Positions 43,465 through 62,835 of a stretch of DNA of 64,000 nucleotides are shown here, one piece after another (within the stretch, counting starts at the first letter, position 1; the number at the start of each line of letters is the position of its first letter). Below the pieces are notes generated by a model that searched no databases, was not told where the DNA came from, and saw nothing but the letters and a program-made list of their open reading frames with translations. The stretch lies in the NCBI RefSeq assembly GCF_019331775.1, contig NZ_JAHBBD010000005.1, positions 62,001 to 126,000 on the forward strand. Direction: 5' to 3'. The DNA is from Bifidobacterium phasiani. Its GTDB lineage: Bacteria; Actinomycetota; Actinomycetes; Actinomycetales; Bifidobacteriaceae. Both the position numbers and the translations under genes were made by a program.

Positions 43465-44736
43465 ATGACGACGCATGACGCACCCGACCGCATGCTCACC
43501 CGCGACGTGGCGCTGGTGATGGCGGCCGCGTTCTGCTACATGGCCAGCAACATGATCGGCACCCCGCTGATGCCCGGCTACGCCGGCGAGCTCGGCGCCA
43601 CCGGCACGGTGCTGGGCGTCGTCTCCGGCATGATGAGCTTCGTCTCGCTGTTCTGCCGCCCGATCGCCGGCAACCTCGCCGACCGGCTGAGCAAGCGGCT
43701 CATCGTCGGCGTCGGATCGGCGCTGTATCTGGTCTCGAGCCTCTGGTACGCCTTCGCCACGTCGCCGGGCTCGCTGATCGCCGCGCGCATGGTCAACGGC
43801 GTCGCGTTCGCCTGCTGCTCGGTGTGCCTGGCGACGTGGATGGCGACGCTGCTGCCGATCCGGCACATGGGCGCCGGCATGGGGCTGTACGGCACCGTCA
43901 ACGCGCTGGCGATGGCGATCGGCCCGGCGATCGGCATCGAGGTGCAGCGGTTGGTCGGCTACCGGGCGACGTTCCTGATGTCGGCGGTGCTGGCGGTGGT
44001 GATGGTCGCGGCGGTGCTGCTGGTGCGCGACGGCGGGCGGCCGGTCGGGGCCGCGGCGCGCGGCGCGGCGGGCGACGGGGACGCGCGGACCGACGGCGCG
44101 CGGACCGCGGACGGCGGCGCGGAATCGGCGGTCCGGCGCGCAGGCCCGCCGCGCCGGCTGCTCGGCGCGGTCATCGAGCCGCGCGTGCTGCCGCTGGCGC
44201 TGGTGTTCATGCTGTTCGTCGCACCGTACTACGCGACGCAGTCGTTCGTCGTCGAATACGCGGCGGCGCGCGGCTTCCACGTCGCCGTGAGCCTGTTCTT
44301 CCCGCTGTACGCCCTCGCCCTGCTGATCCTGCGCATCACGCTGCGCGACCTGTTCGACCGCAAGTCGTTCCGGTTCTTCTTCGTCGCATGCTCGGCGTGC
44401 ATGCTGGCCGCGCTGCTGTGCCTGGACCTGATGGCGAACAACGCCGTGCTGGTCGCCGCCGCGGTCCTGACGGCGTTCGGCTACGGCGTGATGAGCTCGG
44501 CCACGCAGTCGCAGGCGGTCATCATCGCCGGCCGCGCCCATGCCGGACTGGCCAACAGCACGTACTACGTGGGCATCGACCTGGGCATGACACTCGGCTC
44601 GCTGCTCGGCGGGTTCCTGTACGGCAACGTCGGCATCGAGTGGTTCTACCCGGTCCTCATGCTCTCGATGCCGCTGGCGTGGGTGATCTACATCGCCGCC
44701 GCGCACATCATCCATCCGGCGCACACGCGGCGGTAG
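43465..44736 (+). CDS. MFS transporter, putative exporter
   Basis: Twelve-helix membrane protein, 423 residues. Helix 1 VALVMAAAFCYMASNMIGTPLMPGYAGELGA and the loop CRPIAGNLADRLSKRLI are major-facilitator marks; the second half repeats the layout after a long cytoplasmic loop. That central loop (about residues 190-222) is a low-complexity run (GAAARGAAGDGDARTDGART) unlike the rest of the protein. The substrate is unknown; the family resembles drug or sugar-efflux MFS members. ATG after AAGGAG. It ends 95 bases before tRNA-Arg. Confidence 0.85.
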   Translation: MTTHDAPDRMLTRDVALVMAAAFCYMASNMIGTPLMPGYAGELGATGTVLGVVSGMMSFVSLFCRPIAGNLADRLSKRLIVGVGSALYLVSSLWYAFATSPGSLIAARMVNGVAFACCSVCLATWMATLLPIRHMGAGMGLYGTVNALAMAIGPAIGIEVQRLVGYRATFLMSAVLAVVMVAAVLLVRDGGRPVGAAARGAAGDGDARTDGARTADGGAESAVRRAGPPRRLLGAVIEPRVLPLALVFMLFVAPYYATQSFVVEYAAARGFHVAVSLFFPLYALALLILRITLRDLFDRKSFRFFFVACSACMLAALLCLDLMANNAVLVAAAVLTAFGYGVMSSATQSQAVIIAGRAHAGLANSTYYVGIDLGMTLGSLLGGFLYGNVGIEWFYPVLMLSMPLAWVIYIAAAHIIHPAHTRR

Positions 44737-44812
44737 CGGCGGCCCCGCGGCGCACGGGACGCCGGCGAGGCCAACCCGGCGGAAGGACGCTCGCGGACGG
44801 TCCCCGTTCGCG

Positions 44813-44818
44813 TGTATA
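44813..44818 (+). promoter_or_regulatory. -10 box of tRNA-Arg
   Basis: TATACT about 14 bases before the first tRNA base; no good -35 seen. Confidence 0.5.
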
Positions 44819-44831
44819 CTATGGGTGATTT

Positions 44832-44905
44832 GGCCCCGTAGCTCAGTTGGATAGAGCATGTGACTTCTAATCTCAAGGTCGGGAGTTCGAGCCTCCCCGG
44901 GGTCA
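44832..44905 (+). tRNA. tRNA-Arg (anticodon TCT)
   Basis: Acceptor GGCCCCG / CGGGGTC, D arm GCTC-AGTTGGATA-GAGC, anticodon stem TGTGA / TCTCA around loop CTTCTAA (anticodon TCT), T arm GGGAG-TTCGAGC-CTCCC, discriminator A. The middle pair of the anticodon stem (positions 29 and 41) is a T-T mismatch. CCA is not encoded. It reads AGA codons, rare in this GC-rich genome. Confidence 0.95.
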
Positions 44906-44908
44906 CTC

Positions 44909-45063
44909 GTTGTGTCGATTGTTCGTCGCGAGTGCCCGACATTGCCGGTTGCGTTGGTTGTTCGTCGCAAGTGCCCGACATTGCCGGTTGCGTTAATTGC
45001 CTATCGCGAATGCCCGGCATCGCCGGTTGCGTTGGTCGTCCGTCACGATGCCCGGCATTGCCG
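44909..45063. repeat. Four tandem 39-bp repeats
   Basis: Units 44909-44947, 44948-44986, 44987-45025 and 45026-45063 (last one 38 bases). They begin GTTGCGTTGG (unit 1 differs) and end GACATTGCCG or GGCATTGCCG. The period is divisible by three, so a minus-strand reading encodes a 13-residue repeat, but that frame has no start signal. It starts 4 bases after the tRNA-Arg. Confidence 0.85.
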
Positions 45064-45174
45064 GTCAGTCCGCTTCGTCGGCGGGGCGGCCCCCTGGACG
45101 GGACAAGGCCTATGAACGGGACAGGCCCGCGGACGGGTCTGCTCCGTGAACGGGACGGGACCCGGACCCCGATG

Positions 45175-45292
45175 GCCGCCGGCGTCGGTTTTGGTTGATA
45201 AACAACGGGGCGACTGCGTTTTAGCAGACGCTGGGCGATCCCCAACGTCGGTTCGGTAGCACAGGTGCCGCCGCAAGTGCTACCGAACCGAC
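45175..45292. repeat. 118-bp dispersed element, copy B
   Basis: Partner of 3531-3648. Here the terminal hairpin is perfect: GTCGGTTCGGTAGCAC, 14-base loop, exact complement. Both copies are near a tRNA gene but in different orientations relative to it. The remaining bases to 45577 hold no supported gene. Confidence 0.8.
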
Positions 45293-45577
45293 CCGATGCC
45301 GATGCGCAACGGGCGGCACGGTAGCCATGATGCCGCAAATGCCACGGAGCCGACGCCCGGACGGAAGACAACAACCGGTACACGCGCGCCACACCCGGAT
45401 ACGCTCCATGCCGCCACGCCCCTCCTCGCCGTGCTGCGGCTTGTCCGCCATCCCCCGGCACCGCCGGGATGATCCCGACCGGGGTGACGCGGCGATGCGG
45501 TCCGCCTGTTATCGCCTGGCTCCGATTCATTCCGACGCATGGCGAGACGACAGGCCGCCGTTATCGCACGGCGCCGC

Positions 45578-45592
45578 TAGACTCGGGCGCCA
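45578..45592 (+). promoter_or_regulatory. Leaderless promoter of the GNAT gene
   Basis: TAGACT (45578-45583) ends 8 bases before the ATG, with no ribosome-binding site, so transcription probably begins at or next to the start codon. Confidence 0.45.
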
Positions 45593-46104
45593 TGAGACTG
45601 ATCGAGGCATGGAACGCCAACCCGGAGCGCGCCTACGCGCTGTTCGGCGCGTTCCCGGCGAACGAGCACGGGTTCGTCAACGATGCGTACGGCATGGACC
45701 GCGACGAGTTCGCGCGGTACCTGCGCCGGACCGAGGACATGCACGCCGGCCGCGACCTGCCGCCGGGGTACGCGCCCGCCACGAAGTACATCCTCGTCAA
45801 CGACGAGGGCGAGTATGTGGGCATCGTCAACCTGCGGCACCGGCTCAACGACGCGCTGCGCGAGGGCGCCGGGCACATCGGCTACGGCATCGCGCCCGCA
45901 TACCGCGGCCACGGCTACGCGACCGAGGGGCTGCGGCTGGCGCTGGCCATCGCCCGCGACGTCCACGGCATCGACGAGGCCTACCTGAGCGTCGACAAGG
46001 ACAACCCCGCCTCGCTGGCCGTGCAGCGGCATTGCGGCGCGCGCATCGACCACGAGAACGACACCGAGTACTTCACCCGCATCGACACGACCGCATTGGA
46101 CTGA
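45592..46104 (+). CDS. GNAT family N-acetyltransferase
   Basis: Acetyl-CoA-dependent acetyltransferase, 170 residues. The core VGIVNLRHRLNDALREGAGHIGYGIAPAYRGHGYATEGLRLALAIARD has the acetyl-CoA loop (YRGHGYA), and VDKDNPASLAVQRHCGARIDHEN the final helix. The pattern resembles RimJ/RimL-like or YjdJ-type GNATs; substrate unknown. An open frame extends to 45469, but homology and the -10 box support 45592. It is convergent with the flavodoxin gene. Confidence 0.88.
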   Translation: MRLIEAWNANPERAYALFGAFPANEHGFVNDAYGMDRDEFARYLRRTEDMHAGRDLPPGYAPATKYILVNDEGEYVGIVNLRHRLNDALREGAGHIGYGIAPAYRGHGYATEGLRLALAIARDVHGIDEAYLSVDKDNPASLAVQRHCGARIDHENDTEYFTRIDTTALD

Positions 46105-46152
46105 CCGCCGCGCTCCGGCGGCCGGACGGGTGTCGGAGCGCCGGACGGGGCG

Positions 46153-46710
46153 TCACCCGGCCGACACCCCGTCCGCATCCGCCGACGCCAGCCACCGGGC
46201 GACGAGGGGACGCAAGGCGTCGGGGTCGGACTGGACTGCGGAGCCGAGGACCGGCAGGCCGTCGCGCACGTCGCACCCCGGCAGCGCCCCGCGCAGCTCG
46301 TCCATCGTGCGGGCCAGCCCGCTGCCCTCGTTGGTGCAGAACGGCAGGATCGTCTTGCCGCGCAGGTCATGGCCGTCCAGGAACGTGCGCACCGGCATCG
46401 GCAGGGAGCCGCACCAGATCGGGTAGCCGAGCGCGATGCGGCCGGCGGCGGCGACGGCCCGTTCCGCGTCGAGGCCGTCCGGGGACACGGCCCGCAGCGC
46501 GATCCCGGGACGCGCCTGCGCCTCGAGCTCGTGCTGGATGAGCGACTTGGCCTCGTCGTAGCCGGCCGGATACGCCCGGTCCGGCACGATGCGCACCGAC
46601 GCCGCGCCGGACTCCTCCGCCACGATGCGCGCCAGCTTCGCGGTGCTGCCCTCGTCGACGACGCCGACGTTGAAGTTCTCCCCGGGACGCGAGAAAAACA
46701 CCACCAGCAT
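46153..46710 (-). CDS. Flavodoxin
   Basis: FMN-binding redox protein, 185 residues. VVFFSRPGENFNVGVVDEGSTAKLARIVAEE is the phosphate loop region with a Pro-Gly-Glu variant of the usual S/T-rich loop; ALGYPIWCGSLPMPVRTFLDGHDLRGKTILPFCTNEGSG carries the two flavin-ring loops. This is the flavodoxin-4-like group, which often acts with nitro- or quinone-reducing enzymes. ATG after AAGGAGGT. It shares little sequence with the flavodoxin at 16153. It is divergent from the next gene. Confidence 0.88.
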   Translation of the reverse strand: MLVVFFSRPGENFNVGVVDEGSTAKLARIVAEESGAASVRIVPDRAYPAGYDEAKSLIQHELEAQARPGIALRAVSPDGLDAERAVAAAGRIALGYPIWCGSLPMPVRTFLDGHDLRGKTILPFCTNEGSGLARTMDELRGALPGCDVRDGLPVLGSAVQSDPDALRPLVARWLASADADGVSAG

Positions 46711-46859
46711 ACGGGACCTCCTTCGTCCGGACGGACGCCCGGCCGTGCGGCCGGACCGTCCGCCCCATCATACCCCCGACGCACCGCCGGAGCGGCCGCC
46801 GCCGCACGCCCGTCGCGCGGGACGCCGCGGCGCGGCCGCACGCCGGGGGCGCATGCGGC

Positions 46860-55074: not shown

Positions 55075-55216
55075 CGGCATCCGCCCGCCGGGGCCGGCCG
55101 ACGTCCACAATTCACCCGCTGTTCACCCGCGGTTCGGCCGCCCGGCCCCGTCGGCTCACCCGGCGGCGCTAGTCTGGGCCCGGCCGCCCGCCGGGGCGGA
55201 TAGCAGAGGAGACGAC

Positions 55217-56086
55217 GTGCACACTTCCACGGGGATCAGGGAACGCATCGACCACGTGTACCCCTCGCTGCGGCCGGCGGAACGGGCCGTCGCGCAATAC
55301 GTGCGCGACCATCTGGCAGAGTCCGCCGAGCTGACCGTCGGCCAGCTGGCCGCGGCCGCGCACGTCAGCGAGCCGACGGTCATCCGGTTCTCACGCAAGC
55401 TGGGCTTCGGCGGCTACCGCGAGCTGCGCTACGTGCTGCGCCACCCGCAGGCGGAACGGCGCGCGACCTTCGACCCGCTGGAGGGCTTCGACCTCAACCC
55501 GTGGGACAGGCTCGAGGACGTGCCCGACAAGGCGGTGCACGGCACGGCGTCGCTGCTCGACGACCTGCTCGCCTCGCTCGACCGCAGGGAGTTCCGCAAG
55601 GCGGTGGCCTTGCTCGCGGGCGCCGACCTCATCGACGTCATCGGCGTGGAGAACTCGCTGGCGCCGGCCACCGACCTGTTCACCAAACTCAGCTACCTGG
55701 GGCTGCGCTGCCGGATGAACGCCGACGCCTACCTGCAGCAGATCGCCGCCGGGCACCTGTCCGGGGGCGACGTGGTCGTCGCGTTCTCCTACTCCGGCGC
55801 CTCGGCGGACACCGTCAAGGCGCTGCGGCTGGCCAAGTCGCGCGGCGCGCGCACGATCGCCGTCACCAACGCGCCGGGCTCGCCGATCTGCAACTGGGCG
55901 GACGTGGCCCTGCTCGCCGGGCGCGGCGAGCGCACCATCTACGGCAACGCCATCTTCTCGCGCGCCGCGCACGTCGTCATGGTCGACATGCTGTACATGG
56001 GCGTGATCCTCAGCGACTACGGGCGCTTCTCCACCGAACTCGACCGTTCGGGCCGCACCATCCAGGACCGCGGCTACAACGGCTGA
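55217..56086 (+). CDS. RpiR family transcriptional regulator
   Basis: Sugar-phosphate-responsive regulator, 289 residues. The HTH-6 domain covers about 1-78 (LTVGQLAAAAHVSEPTVIRFSRKLGFGGYRELRY); the SIS domain covers about 125-260 (DVVVAFSYSGASADTVKALRLAKSRGARTIAVTNAPGSPICNWADVALL). The GTG at 55217 has AGAGGAGA upstream; an open frame extends to 54944 over the divergent gene. By position it may control the arabinofuranosidase gene, or the phosphonate operon 418 bases downstream. A terminator follows directly. Confidence 0.9.
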   Translation: MHTSTGIRERIDHVYPSLRPAERAVAQYVRDHLAESAELTVGQLAAAAHVSEPTVIRFSRKLGFGGYRELRYVLRHPQAERRATFDPLEGFDLNPWDRLEDVPDKAVHGTASLLDDLLASLDRREFRKAVALLAGADLIDVIGVENSLAPATDLFTKLSYLGLRCRMNADAYLQQIAAGHLSGGDVVVAFSYSGASADTVKALRLAKSRGARTIAVTNAPGSPICNWADVALLAGRGERTIYGNAIFSRAAHVVMVDMLYMGVILSDYGRFSTELDRSGRTIQDRGYNG

Positions 56087-56504: not shown

Positions 56505-57305
56505 ATGCTCGAACTGAAGAACGTCACCAAGTCGTTCGGGGACGCGCACGTCCTCAACGGCATCAGCCTGACCCTCGACAAGGGCCGGATCATGTCCATC
56601 CTCGGCCCCTCCGGCGGCGGCAAGACCACGCTGCTCAACATCATCCTCGGCATCACCGACGCCACCGGCGGGCGGATCCTCTTCGACGGCGAGGACCTGA
56701 CGCACGTGCCGATGGAGAAGCGCGGCTTCAACATCGTGTTCCAGGACTACGCGCTGTTCCCGAACCTCAACGCCTACGAGAACATCACCTACGGCCTGAG
56801 GAACGACCCCGGCCTGTCCTCCCCCGGGGAGATCCGCGAGTTGATCGCGCTGCTGGGGCTGGAGGAGCACCTCGACAAGTCCATCGACGAGCTGTCCGGC
56901 GGCCAGAAGCAGCGCGTGGCGCTCGCCCGCACGCTGGTGATGAAGCCGCGGCTGCTCCTGCTCGACGAGCCGCTGTCCGCGCTCGACGGCGTCATCAAGG
57001 AGTCGATCAAGGCCAAGATCAGGCAGATCGTCGACCAGTACCACCTGACCACCATCATGGTCACGCACGACCCCGAGGAGGCGTGCACGATGAGCGACCG
57101 CGTGCTCATCCTCAACCAGGGCGCGATCGCGCAGTACGACACCCCGGAGAACATCATCGAGCATCCGGCCAGCGACTTCGTCCGCACCTTCATCCTCCAC
57201 CAGCTGGAGGTCAAGCGCAACAACATCTATTCGCTGTTCGCCGACGGCCGGCCGGCGCACGGGGCGCCGGCCGCGCAGCCCGCCGGCCGCGCAGGCAAGG
57301 AGTGA
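56505..57305 (+). CDS. ABC transporter ATP-binding protein, 2-aminoethylphosphonate type
   Basis: Energises uptake of a phosphonate; 266 residues. Walker A GPSGGGKTT, Q-loop NIVFQDYALFPNLNAYENI, signature ELSGGQKQRVALARTLV, Walker B LLLLDEPLSALD, switch MVTHDPEEA. The sequence is the spermidine/iron/2-aminoethylphosphonate importer class. The C-terminal FILHQLEVKRNNIYSLF has no large regulatory domain. ATG at 56505 after GGAAGG (about 11 bases upstream). The next gene begins 3 bases after its stop. Assignment to 2-aminoethylphosphonate rests on the phnW and phnX genes that follow. Confidence 0.9.
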   Translation: MLELKNVTKSFGDAHVLNGISLTLDKGRIMSILGPSGGGKTTLLNIILGITDATGGRILFDGEDLTHVPMEKRGFNIVFQDYALFPNLNAYENITYGLRNDPGLSSPGEIRELIALLGLEEHLDKSIDELSGGQKQRVALARTLVMKPRLLLLDEPLSALDGVIKESIKAKIRQIVDQYHLTTIMVTHDPEEACTMSDRVLILNQGAIAQYDTPENIIEHPASDFVRTFILHQLEVKRNNIYSLFADGRPAHGAPAAQPAGRAGKE

Positions 57306-57308
57306 GCC

Positions 57309-60176
57309 ATGTCCGTCGAATCGATCCAGGCAGGCAAGCAGCTGCCCAACATCGCCCCGGAGATCGTCAACTACGAGCGCAGGCCGTCCAAGCCCCGGCA
57401 GACCGAGCTGTGGGCGCTGCTGGCCGTCGTCGCCGTCGCGTTCGCCGCGTTCCTCGTCGTGCCGATGGCGCTGGTCGTGATCCGCTCGTTCCAGACCGGC
57501 GACGGCGCGGCCACGCTGAGCAACTATGCGGCGATCCTGGCCCGGCCCGAGTTCGCGACCTCGGTGCTCAACTCGCTCAAGGTGGCGGGCGCCTCCGCGC
57601 TGGTCGCCGTGCTGCTGGCGTTCCTGCTCGCCTACACGGTCAACTGCACGAACGTGCCGAAGGGGCTGAAGAAGGCCATCACGCTGCTCACCCAGGTGCC
57701 GATGCTGCTGCCGACCATCACCTACGGCTTCGCCATCATCTACAGCTTCGGCAACCAGGGGCTGATCACCCGGCTGCTCGGCTTCCAGCCGTTCGACATC
57801 TACGGCTTCACCGGACTGCTCATCGGCTACGTCGTCTACACGCTGCCGACCTGCTTCCTGCTGATCAACAACAGCTTCCGGTTCGTCGACAAGAAGTTCG
57901 TCATCGTCTCGCACATCATGGGCGACAAGCCGTGGACGACGTTCCTGAACACGGTGCTGCGGCCGCTGGTCGGCACGCTCGCCGTCGCGTTCATCCAGGC
58001 GTTCTTCCTGGCGTTCACCGACTACGGCATCCCGACCTCGGTCGGCGGCACGTACGACGTGCTCGCGATGACGCTGTACAACCAGATGCTCGGCTCGATC
58101 CCGAACTTCAACCGCGGCGCCGTGATCGCCGTGTTCATGCTCGTCCCCTCGATCGCGTCGATCATCCTGATGACCGTGCTCGAGCGCTACTCGATCCGCT
58201 ACGCCAAGGTCTCGCAGGTCGAGCTGCCCAAGGGCCCGCGGCGCGACTGGCTGTGCGGCGCCGGGTCGGTGCTCGCGCTGGCGTGCGTGCTCTCGCTGTT
58301 CGCGGTGATCCTCATCATCCCGTTCGTGGCCGAATGGCCGTTCGACACCTCGTTCACCTGGGAGCACATCACGCGGCTGTTCACCGACGGCTCGCTGAGC
58401 TCGGTGTACCTCAACTCGCTGTACGTGGCGGTGATGACCGCGATCGTCGGCTGCCTGTTCGCCTACGCGGCCGGCCTGGTGACCTCGCGCTCGAAGCTGC
58501 CGAATTGGGCCAAGCGCGTCGTCGACGCGATGAGCTCGGTGATCAACACCGTGCCGGGCATGGTGCTGGGCATCGCGTTCCTGTTCGCGTTCTCCGGCGG
58601 CTCGCTGCAGAACACGTTCTGGATCCTGATCGCCGCGAACGTGGTGCACTACTTCGCCACGCCGTACCAGATGATCAAGGACTCGCTGTCGAAGATGAAC
58701 GGCTCGTGGGAGACCACGGCCAAGCTCATGGGCGACAGCTGGATCAAAACGATCGTACGCGTGGTCACGCCGAACGCGTGGCCCACGATCCTGCAGGTGT
58801 TCGGCTACTACTTCGTCAACGCGATGGTGACGATCTCCGCGGTCGTGTTCCTGACCGGCGCGCGCACGCAGGTCATCACCACCGAGATCTCCGTGCTGCA
58901 GCACCTGGCCGAGTTCGACCAGATCTTCGCGCTGTCGGTCCTGATCCTGGCGACCAACCTCGTCGTCAAGGGCGTGATCGCGCTGGCCACCCGCGAGCGC
59001 GGCCGGGCCACGGTGCGCGAGCGCGTCGTGCAGGTCGCCACCGCCGCGATGACGGTGCGCCGCGACGCCAGGCTGATCGCGCTGGAGCAGGCGTCGGTCA
59101 CCGGCTCGCCGGACTTCCCGCTGCCGACCTCCGGCAACCGCCGCGGCCGGCGCATCTTCACGGGCACGCTCTCCGGCATCCTCGCCGTCATCCTCGTCGC
59201 CTTCGGCTTCGGCGCATTCTCCGGCACCGCCGCGGCCGACGGCCAGGTCGTCATCTACACGAACGCCGACGACGAGGCGGTGACCGCGTTCCAGCACGCG
59301 CTCGACGCGAACGGATTCGGGAACCGGTACGTCATCCAGAGCTTCGGTACCTCCGAGCTCGGCGGCAAGCTGCTCGCCGAGGGCCGCGCGCTGGAGGCCG
59401 ACCTGATCACGATGAGCTCGTACTACATCGACTCGGCGCAGGAGCGCAACCACATGTTCGCCGACCTGACCGAGGTCGCCTCGCGGCCGCTCGGCGCCGA
59501 CGGCAACTCCACCGCGCCTGTCTGGCGCCGGCCGACCACCGTGCAGGAAGGCGCGATCTTCTACAACACCACCGTGCTCGAGGACGAGGGGCTGCCGGTG
59601 CCGGAAAGCCTGGCCGACCTGGCCGACCCGATCTACGAGGGCCAGATCTCCGTGACCGACATGGAGGGTTCCTCGACCGGCTGGCTGATGGTCCAGGCCA
59701 TCGCCGACGCGTACGGCACCGGCGAGCGCGGCCGCGAAATCCTGACCGGCATCTACCGCAACGCCGGACCGCACCTGCAGATGTCCGGATCCGGACCGCT
59801 GAACTCGGTGCGTTCGGGCGAGGTGGCGATCGGCTTCGGCCTGCGCCACCAGGCGGTCGCCGACAAGACCGAGGGGCTGCCGATCGACTACGTCGACCCC
59901 GAGGAGGGCAACTACTCGCTCACCGAATCGGTGGCGGTGCTCGACAAGGGCGACCGGACCAACCCGCTGGCGCAGAAGATGGCCGGGGTGATCGTCGACG
60001 AGGGCCGCGCCGAGCTGCTGGAGACCTACCCGGTGCCGCTGTACGCCGGAGAGACGGAGTCCGCCGACGGTTCGGCGAACCCGAAGGTCTTCCCGGATCC
60101 GCTGACCGTCGACCTGCTGCAGGAGCACCAGGACTTCTCCGAGGCCTGCAAACGCGCCGCGCAGGGCGACCGGTAG
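57309..60176 (+). CDS. Fused double permease and substrate-binding protein (phosphonate ABC importer)
   Basis: One 955-residue chain holds three usually separate parts. Residues about 35-310 and 315-600 are two binding-protein-dependent permease domains, each about six helices, with EAA-type loops (HIMGDKPWTTFLNTVLRPLVG and KLMGDSWIKTIVRVVTPNAW). A thirteenth helix about 615-640 then places residues about 644-955 outside; this part (QVVIYTNADDEAVTAFQHAL, TVQEGAIFYNTTVLEDEG, MEGSSTGWLMVQA, IGFGLRHQAV) is a periplasmic-type iron/phosphonate binding protein. Topology is consistent: cytoplasmic end of permease two, helix, exported domain. SD AAGGAG before the ATG. No frameshift is needed, so the fusion appears real. 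No separate lipoprotein gene is nearby. Confidence 0.9.
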   Translation: MSVESIQAGKQLPNIAPEIVNYERRPSKPRQTELWALLAVVAVAFAAFLVVPMALVVIRSFQTGDGAATLSNYAAILARPEFATSVLNSLKVAGASALVAVLLAFLLAYTVNCTNVPKGLKKAITLLTQVPMLLPTITYGFAIIYSFGNQGLITRLLGFQPFDIYGFTGLLIGYVVYTLPTCFLLINNSFRFVDKKFVIVSHIMGDKPWTTFLNTVLRPLVGTLAVAFIQAFFLAFTDYGIPTSVGGTYDVLAMTLYNQMLGSIPNFNRGAVIAVFMLVPSIASIILMTVLERYSIRYAKVSQVELPKGPRRDWLCGAGSVLALACVLSLFAVILIIPFVAEWPFDTSFTWEHITRLFTDGSLSSVYLNSLYVAVMTAIVGCLFAYAAGLVTSRSKLPNWAKRVVDAMSSVINTVPGMVLGIAFLFAFSGGSLQNTFWILIAANVVHYFATPYQMIKDSLSKMNGSWETTAKLMGDSWIKTIVRVVTPNAWPTILQVFGYYFVNAMVTISAVVFLTGARTQVITTEISVLQHLAEFDQIFALSVLILATNLVVKGVIALATRERGRATVRERVVQVATAAMTVRRDARLIALEQASVTGSPDFPLPTSGNRRGRRIFTGTLSGILAVILVAFGFGAFSGTAAADGQVVIYTNADDEAVTAFQHALDANGFGNRYVIQSFGTSELGGKLLAEGRALEADLITMSSYYIDSAQERNHMFADLTEVASRPLGADGNSTAPVWRRPTTVQEGAIFYNTTVLEDEGLPVPESLADLADPIYEGQISVTDMEGSSTGWLMVQAIADAYGTGERGREILTGIYRNAGPHLQMSGSGPLNSVRSGEVAIGFGLRHQAVADKTEGLPIDYVDPEEGNYSLTESVAVLDKGDRTNPLAQKMAGVIVDEGRAELLETYPVPLYAGETESADGSANPKVFPDPLTVDLLQEHQDFSEACKRAAQGDR

Positions 60177-60423: not shown

Positions 60424-61596
60424 ATGAACCGCGACTACAAGCTGCTCACCCCCGGACCGCTGACCACCACGCGCACGGTCAAGGAGGAGATGCTCTTCGA
60501 CCACTGCACCTGGGACGACGACTACAAGGCCATCACCCAGAAGATCCGCGCCGACCTGCTCGAGCTGGCGCACTGCGACCCGTCCCGGTACACGGTCGTG
60601 CTGATGCAGGGCTCCGGCACCTTCGGCGTCGAAAGCGTGCTGACCAGCGTGATCGGCGCCGACGAGAAGGTGCTGCTGTGCACCAACGGCGCCTACGGCG
60701 ACCGCCAGGTCAAGATCTGCGAGCACGCCGGCATCGATCATGTGCGGTACGCGGAGCCCTACGACCGCATCCCCGACGCCGCGCGCGTCGAACGGATCCT
60801 GGACGCCGACCCGTCGATCACGCATGTGTCGATGATCCATTCGGAGACGACCTCCGGCCTGCTCAACGACATCGAGTCGGTGGCCCGCGTCGCCAAGGAG
60901 CACGGCTGCACGATGATCGTCGACGCGATGAGCTCGTTCGGCGGCGTGGACATCCCGGTGGCCGACTGGGGCATCGACTTCATCGTCAGCTCGGCGAACA
61001 AGTGCATCCAGGGCGTGCCCGGATTCAGCTTCATCATCTGCGACAAGGCGAAGCTGGAGGCCGCCAGGGGCAAGGCGCGCAGCCTGTCGCTGGACCTGTG
61101 GGACCAGTGGAACACGCTGGAGAAGGACAACGGCAAGTGGCGCTACACCTCCCCAACCCACGTCGTGCTCGCGTTCAACAGGGCGCTCGACGAGATGAGG
61201 GAGGAGGGCGGCATCCCCGCCCGCTCGGCCCGCTACGCGCGCAACAACCGCATGCTCATCGCCCGCATGAAGGCGCTCGGCTTCGGCACGTTCCTCAAGG
61301 ACCACCAGGGCCCGATCATCACGACCTTCACCTACCCGCAGGGCGCGGACTTCGATTTCGCCGACATGTACGCGTTCATCAAGGAGCGCGGCTACGCGAT
61401 CTACCCGGGCAAGCTCACCGACGAGGAGACCTTCCGCCTGGGCAACATCGGCGAGATCTACCCCGACGACATCGTGCGCGTCACCGAACTGTTCGCGATG
61501 TACATGGCCGAGCGCGGGCTGCTCAAGCCCTGCGCCGGCACCGGCGACGTCGCCGAGGCGATCGCCGCGATGGACCGGGCCTCGCAGGCCATCTGA
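60424..61596 (+). CDS. phnW: 2-aminoethylphosphonate-pyruvate transaminase
   Basis: PLP enzyme giving phosphonoacetaldehyde and alanine. The protein is 390 residues, close to the usual 365-380. KLLTPGPLTTTRTVKEEMLFDHCTWDDDYKAIT is the diagnostic N-terminus; GSGTFGVESVL binds the phosphate; IVDAMSSFGGVDIPVADWGIDFIVSSANKCIQGVPGFSF holds the Asp and the Schiff-base Lys193. The end (GLLKPCAGTGDVAEAIAAMDRA) is slightly extended. ATG after AAAGGG. Between transporter and PhnX genes, so the substrate is well supported. Confidence 0.94.
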   Translation: MNRDYKLLTPGPLTTTRTVKEEMLFDHCTWDDDYKAITQKIRADLLELAHCDPSRYTVVLMQGSGTFGVESVLTSVIGADEKVLLCTNGAYGDRQVKICEHAGIDHVRYAEPYDRIPDAARVERILDADPSITHVSMIHSETTSGLLNDIESVARVAKEHGCTMIVDAMSSFGGVDIPVADWGIDFIVSSANKCIQGVPGFSFIICDKAKLEAARGKARSLSLDLWDQWNTLEKDNGKWRYTSPTHVVLAFNRALDEMREEGGIPARSARYARNNRMLIARMKALGFGTFLKDHQGPIITTFTYPQGADFDFADMYAFIKERGYAIYPGKLTDEETFRLGNIGEIYPDDIVRVTELFAMYMAERGLLKPCAGTGDVAEAIAAMDRASQAI

Positions 61597-61877: not shown

Positions 61878-62052
61878 ACAATAACCACCGGCGGAGTGCG
61901 CGATGCCGCCCCGCCACGGACCGAGGCCGCCCAGCCGGCGCACGCGCCGGACGCGCGGCCGCCACCAACCGACGCGACGGCCCACCGCCGCCGCATGGAC
62001 TCACATACCGCCGGCAGCGACCGACCGCCGACGGCAACCAACCGGAGGATAT

Positions 62053-62835
62053 ATGATGACCAACCGTTTTGACGCCGTGATCTTCGACTGGGCCGGCACG
62101 ACCGTGGACTACGGCTGCTTCGCCCCCGTGCAGGCGTTCATGGAGGCGTTCCGCGAGCACGGCGTCGAGCCGACGATGGACGAGACCCGCAAGCCGATGG
62201 GCATGCTCAAGCACGACCACATCGCCACGATGCTCGGCATGCCGCGCATCGCCCGCGCGTGGGAGGACGCGCACGGCGCCGCGCCGACCGACGCCGACGT
62301 GGACGCCGTCTACGAGCGCTTCGAGCCGAAGCTGCTGGGCATCCTCGACCGCTTCGCCGACCCGAAGCCCGGCGTGGTCGACGCGGTCGACGCGCTGCGC
62401 GCCGCCGGACTGAAGATAGGCTCGACGACCGGCTACACCGACGCGATGATGGCGATCGTCGCGCCGAAGGCCGCCGAGCTCGGCTACGCGCCCGACTACT
62501 GGATCAGCGCGGACGGCACCGAGGGCTACGGCCGGCCGTACCCGTACATGATCTTCCGCAACATGCAGGCGCTGCATCTGCAGGACGTGCGCCGCGTCGC
62601 CAAGGTCGGCGACACCATCTCCGACATCCGCGAGGGCAGGAACGCGGGCGTCTTCACCGTCGGCGTGACCGAGGGCAGCTCGCAGATGGGGCTGTCGCAG
62701 GCCGAGTTCGAGGCGCTCTCCCCCGCCGAGCGGGACCGCGAGCGCACGTCGGCGCGCGAGGCGTTCCTCGCCGCCGGCGCCGACGCGGTGATCGACACGA
62801 TGGCCGAGCTGCCGGCGCTGCTGCTGGGCTGCTAG
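62053..62835 (+). CDS. phnX: Phosphonoacetaldehyde hydrolase
   Basis: Haloacid-dehalogenase-fold enzyme that splits phosphonoacetaldehyde to acetaldehyde and phosphate through a Schiff base. The protein is 260 residues. The nucleophile is Asp12 in FDWAGTTVDYG and the Schiff-base lysine is Lys53 in KPMGMLKHDHI; both numbers equal those of the well-studied Bacillus cereus enzyme when the first of the two adjacent ATG codons (62053) is used. VVDAVDALRAAGLKIGSTTGYTDAMM and KVGDTISDIREGRNAG complete the family motifs. GGAGG is 4-7 bases upstream. It completes the pathway begun by PhnW. Confidence 0.95.
   Translation: MMTNRFDAVIFDWAGTTVDYGCFAPVQAFMEAFREHGVEPTMDETRKPMGMLKHDHIATMLGMPRIARAWEDAHGAAPTDADVDAVYERFEPKLLGILDRFADPKPGVVDAVDALRAAGLKIGSTTGYTDAMMAIVAPKAAELGYAPDYWISADGTEGYGRPYPYMIFRNMQALHLQDVRRVAKVGDTISDIREGRNAGVFTVGVTEGSSQMGLSQAEFEALSPAERDRERTSAREAFLAAGADAVIDTMAELPALLLGC

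Follow-up and report, generated by a model that had tools for sequence, protein, structure and literature searches.

A probable phosphonate importer of Bifidobacterium phasiani with its binding domain fused to a two-domain permease

Introduction

In ABC importers, free binding protein is usually present in excess. Why some of them instead tie down a fixed number of binding domains is an old question. Tethered binding domains are already known from two systems. In OpuA of Lactococcus lactis the binding domain is held on a hydrophobic anchor and an 11-residue linker, with two such domains per transporter (PMC11065425). In Mycoplasma, the binding component is joined to one of the two permeases in one gene, potCD (PMC3177781), and the PotB-PotCD spermidine/putrescine importer would thus have one tethered binding domain per heterodimeric transporter. 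Other described systems resemble our locus in their membrane parts. AepXVW comprises a two-domain, single-chain permease (PhnU2/AepW), a PhnT2-like ATPase and a separately encoded binding protein (PhnS2/AepX), adjoining phnWX; AepX, which has the Pfam domain PF13343, is a proven binder of 2-aminoethylphosphonate (2AEP), with a Kd of 23 nM (PMC8316502). The FbpB/AfuB permeases (solved for FbpBC, 9j4r) likewise have both membrane domains in a single chain, and lack a fused binding domain.

Here we describe a gene in a window of 64,000 nucleotides from Bifidobacterium phasiani, which encodes both membrane domains and the binding domain in one chain. The best explanation, and one that we consider probable, is that it encodes a fused 2AEP importer chain with a tethered binding domain, derived from a permease-lipoprotein operon.

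Architecture of the fused chain

The gene (57309-60176, forward strand) is a single open reading frame of 955 codons with an ATG start and no internal stops, recovered also in the genomes of relatives. Its product was originally predicted to hold two permease domains, a thirteenth helix and an external binding domain, and this was borne out. Pfam found two BPD_transp_1 domains (4.8e-20) and one SBP_bac_6 domain at residues 742-890 (1.8e-10); the PF13343-type binding domain scored 41.1 bits, above the Pfam gathering score of 24.6. Permease domain 1 (57402-58190, residues 32-294) and permease domain 2 (58236-58991, residues 310-561) have six helices each, by hydropathy of the aligned family and by an AlphaFold2 model of moderate confidence; hydropathy and the model also place a thirteenth helix at residues 611-632 (59139-59204). 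Between permease domain 2 and helix 13 lies a linker, predicted to be cytoplasmic (58992-59138, residues 562-610), and after helix 13 an outer tether of about 12-14 residues leads to the solute-binding domain (59241-60173, residues 645-955). The region of linker and helix 13 (residues 563-644) has a pLDDT below 50 in the model.

The NCBIfam profile PhnU2 (TIGR03262) matches residues 35-565 (2.8e-104) from profile position 4 to 537 of 546, at 349.7 bits, below its curated cut-off of 593 for full-length members; the permease part is, by profile comparison, a PhnU2 relative and not a certified family member. Similarly, phnS2 (TIGR03261) matches residues 638-906 (1.4e-25) at 90-93 bits, below its cut-off of 393. 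As the PhnU2 profile spans both membrane domains, and the top Foldseek match of the membrane part is a single-chain FbpB, two membrane domains per chain are normal for the PhnU2/AepW and FbpB families. The original prediction that a permease-permease-binding-protein fusion is unusual thus holds for the added C-terminal binding domain only, and the permease-permease join was rejected as the unusual part. We found no published chain of this kind in the open-licence literature, which is weak evidence of novelty.

Compared with AepXVW, then, the Bifidobacterium chain has its binding protein fused C-terminally, and its two parts score below the curated cut-offs. It resembles OpuA in that the binding domain follows the membrane part at the C-terminal end, on what is predicted to be an extra hydrophobic anchor and a short linker. 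The OpuA binding domains, however, belong to a different binding-protein family and are linked to its two membrane domains, whereas both membrane domains of the Bifidobacterium transporter are in one chain, which would give one binding domain in place of two. This also separates it from PotCD, the fused chain of which has only one membrane domain and serves a different substrate.

Three states of the permease-binding protein junction

Among the sequences of our tree, the junction between permease and binding protein was found in three states. In the first, represented by 22 sequences (for example L047, L051 and L101), permease and binding protein are encoded by separate genes, the latter with a start of its own and a lipobox. 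A further two-gene relative (45% identity) lies at 44358-46858 of a Mammaliicoccus sciuri plasmid, NZ_CP077961.1, from chicken-farm air. In the second state, found in 11 Lachnospiraceae sequences, the permease stop codon is gone and a single frame runs through, but the ATG, the lipoprotein signal peptide and the lipobox remain as relics; the internal ribosome-binding site is nearly always among the six strongest of the 53-89 possible in-frame internal starts, L109 being the weak case. In the third state, the full fusion, helix 13 is present, with neither a lipobox nor a good internal start. This state comprises 45 Bifidobacterium sequences, which have a longer linker, and a pair from Lachnospiraceae (L105 and L139). 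We placed two sequences manually: L088 went into the relic group on account of an unusual lipobox, and L139 was counted as a full fusion on account of cysteines near the start of its helix. The lipobox is missing, too, from a Slackia copy (L050, 7983-9383) that has lost most of its permease through an in-frame deletion.

The linker of the window's gene lacks a good internal ribosome-binding site, and a search for internal starts in the Bifidobacterium linker gave no good candidate in L001. A GTG in L019 does rank first, but was rejected as the site is absent from the others inspected.

Related gut bacteria thus have this importer in three natural forms (split, intermediate and fully fused), with which one can directly test what tethering costs and gains, and how one binding domain compares with two.

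Origin of the fusion

In a tree built on the permease and binding domain together, with the root set by one distant outgroup, the full fusion occupies two places, and a single origin of all full fusions was rejected (AU p 1e-42); on this tree, there were at least two origins. Sequences in the relic state lie dispersed among relatives with separate genes, and a single clade for this state was rejected among Lachnospiraceae. The split lipoprotein copy of Bifidobacterium, L047, branches as the sister of the clade of 45 fused sequences (SH-aLRT 92 for this clade and 100 for both together). Given its long branch and unusual composition, however, the support value overstates how firmly L047 is placed. 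The ATPase gene of L047, moreover, carries a frameshift.

We suggest that the ancestor was an operon with the binding lipoprotein gene directly after the permease gene. The simplest reading is that loss of the permease stop codon came first, and that the internal ribosome-binding site, the ATG and the lipobox decayed later, the old signal peptide of the lipoprotein being retained as the membrane anchor, helix 13, which occupies its place in the chain. In some lineages, the genes may have re-split. It is possible, though somewhat less likely than not, that the relic-state frame of Lachnospiraceae yields two products, a tethered chain and, from the internal start, extra free lipoprotein, and that the Bifidobacterium chain descends from such a frame that ceased to make the free form, so that many free binding proteins per transporter gave way to exactly one.

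Sampling across the phylum of the window and that of the Lachnospiraceae added very few further members. Copies from Coriobacteriia (L113/L153 of genome G597, L114/L155 of genome G559, and L050) share 64-66% identity with the window protein, those of Lachnospiraceae being more distant (51-58% for the permease part), which suggests exchange between the Coriobacteriia and the lineage of the window protein.

Helix 13 and the outer tether

The gene encodes binding and membrane domains in one covalent chain with helix 13 predicted between them, which would be tethering of the OpuA kind if the chain stays uncut. The lipobox cysteine is gone from helix 13 of the window protein, in keeping with the original suggestion that the fusion removes the need for a lipoprotein, and the lipobox is lacking in all 45 Bifidobacterium sequences of the tree. 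The window's genome has one copy of the importer gene, and no free homologue or paralogue of the binding protein was found in it with the query and threshold used.

We propose that the binding domain, held by helix 13 and the short outer tether, binds the substrate on the outer side of the membrane and then docks to the translocator of its own chain. Signal peptidase I might instead cut after helix 13 to give a free or loosely held binding protein, so that the fusion would serve only to couple expression; small, AxA-like residues do directly follow the hydrophobic stretch in Bifidobacterium (for example SGTAAADG). We consider such cleavage unlikely: a single-membrane cell would lose a released protein, the independent Lachnospiraceae fusion L105 is without such a site, and the uncharged stretch has a median length of 33, against 22.5 for the signal peptides in relatives with split genes, although this count may extend into the start of the domain. 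With the tether uncut, one chain, contributing both membrane domains, and two copies of the adjacent ATPase would make up one complete transporter, and hence one binding domain per transporter, as had been predicted.

Operon and likely substrate

The phosphonate setting named in the original prediction is evident from the neighbouring genes, all on the forward strand. Upstream of the fused gene are a MurR/RpiR-family regulator (55196-56086), kept in many relatives, and the PhnT2-like partner ATPase (56505-57305, its start taken at MLELKN), which aligns with the PhnT2 profile (353 positions) from position 3 to 236 and no further, and thus seems to lack the usual C-terminal domain. Downstream are PhnW, 2-aminoethylphosphonate-pyruvate transaminase (60424-61596; 508 bits against an NCBIfam cut-off of 401), and PhnX, phosphonoacetaldehyde hydrolase (62050-62835; 370 bits against 220), giving phnW and phnX adjoining an ABC importer, as in a 2AEP phosphonatase operon. 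Among the loci long enough to reveal it, the order ATPase, permease, binding protein, PhnW, PhnX is kept in nearly all those of Bifidobacterium, Lachnospiraceae and Coriobacteriia, and this is our main reason for naming 2AEP as the likely substrate. With the permease and binding parts scoring below their NCBIfam cut-offs, the assignment draws on synteny and fold.

Modelled alone, the binding domain reached a pLDDT of 89. Its top structural matches are AfuA (Z 31 over 299 residues, rmsd 2.6), VcA0625 and P5PA, binders of phosphorylated ligands (glucose-6-phosphate or pyridoxal phosphate); ferric-binding proteins match less well (Z 24-28), and STM0429 of Salmonella, which we take to be PhnS, gives Z 26. 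Together with the Pfam and NCBIfam matches, this AfuA/FbpA-like fold excludes the possibility that the C-terminal part is anything other than a binding protein. AfuA holds phosphate with Ser148-Gly149-Thr150 among others, and requires His205, Asp206 and Glu229 for sugar phosphate (PMC8427247). In the sequence alignment, Ser-Gly-Thr becomes an invariant Ser-Ser-Thr, His205 corresponds to a nearly invariant His203, Glu229 to an invariant Glu222, and Asp206 to an invariant Gln204 (alignment A2 numbering). Such conservation fits a ligand that has a phosphate-type group but differs in its organic part, and the fused domain has PF13343 in common with AepX.

That the same architecture carries another phosphonate, or a phosphate ester such as a sugar phosphate, seems to us improbable. 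The ligands of the nearest solved structures and the scores under the 2AEP cut-offs would suit it, but PhnW and PhnX, enzymes for 2AEP and its product, keep their order in almost every relative, and the Asp206 needed for sugar phosphate is replaced by glutamine. We therefore retain 2AEP as the likely substrate: imported 2AEP would be converted by PhnW to phosphonoacetaldehyde, and this by PhnX to acetaldehyde and phosphate. This would point to phosphonate use by animal-associated bifidobacteria, a subject on which we found no paper in the open-licence literature.

Distribution and continuity of the frame

Across 112 Bifidobacterium genomes, the family is present in 39. The full-length frame is unbroken in 37 of these, frameshifted in one (L041, genome G047) and divided into two genes in another (L047, genome G065); four more matches in the genus are distant permeases of 25-28% identity. 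Three of the 37 intact copies sit in single-contig genomes. Length differences among 45 linker regions are all multiples of three, and over 90 pairs the linker differs at 722, 536 and 2299 sites in codon positions 1, 2 and 3 respectively, which shows that it is translated coding sequence. Although the frameshift in L041 shows that errors or decay do happen, the fear that an assembly error or frameshift had joined two genes can be dismissed, given 37 independent intact copies, three of them in single-contig genomes, and coding constraint throughout the linker.

Frameshifts were seen at about 9556 in L041 (affecting permease and PhnW), at about 7520 in L047 (ATPase) and in several genes of L142, so that some copies may be decaying or contain sequencing errors. 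Large deletions in the importer operon also recur among draft genomes. In a Coriobacteriia copy (L155, 3246-5033) the permease runs into a PhnX fragment. In Sellimonas caecigallum SW451 (L039, 7236-10910) the ATPase, permease, binding protein and PhnW tail form one open frame, made, by comparison with L038, by two in-frame deletions at short matching sequences, which could be real or an assembly fault.
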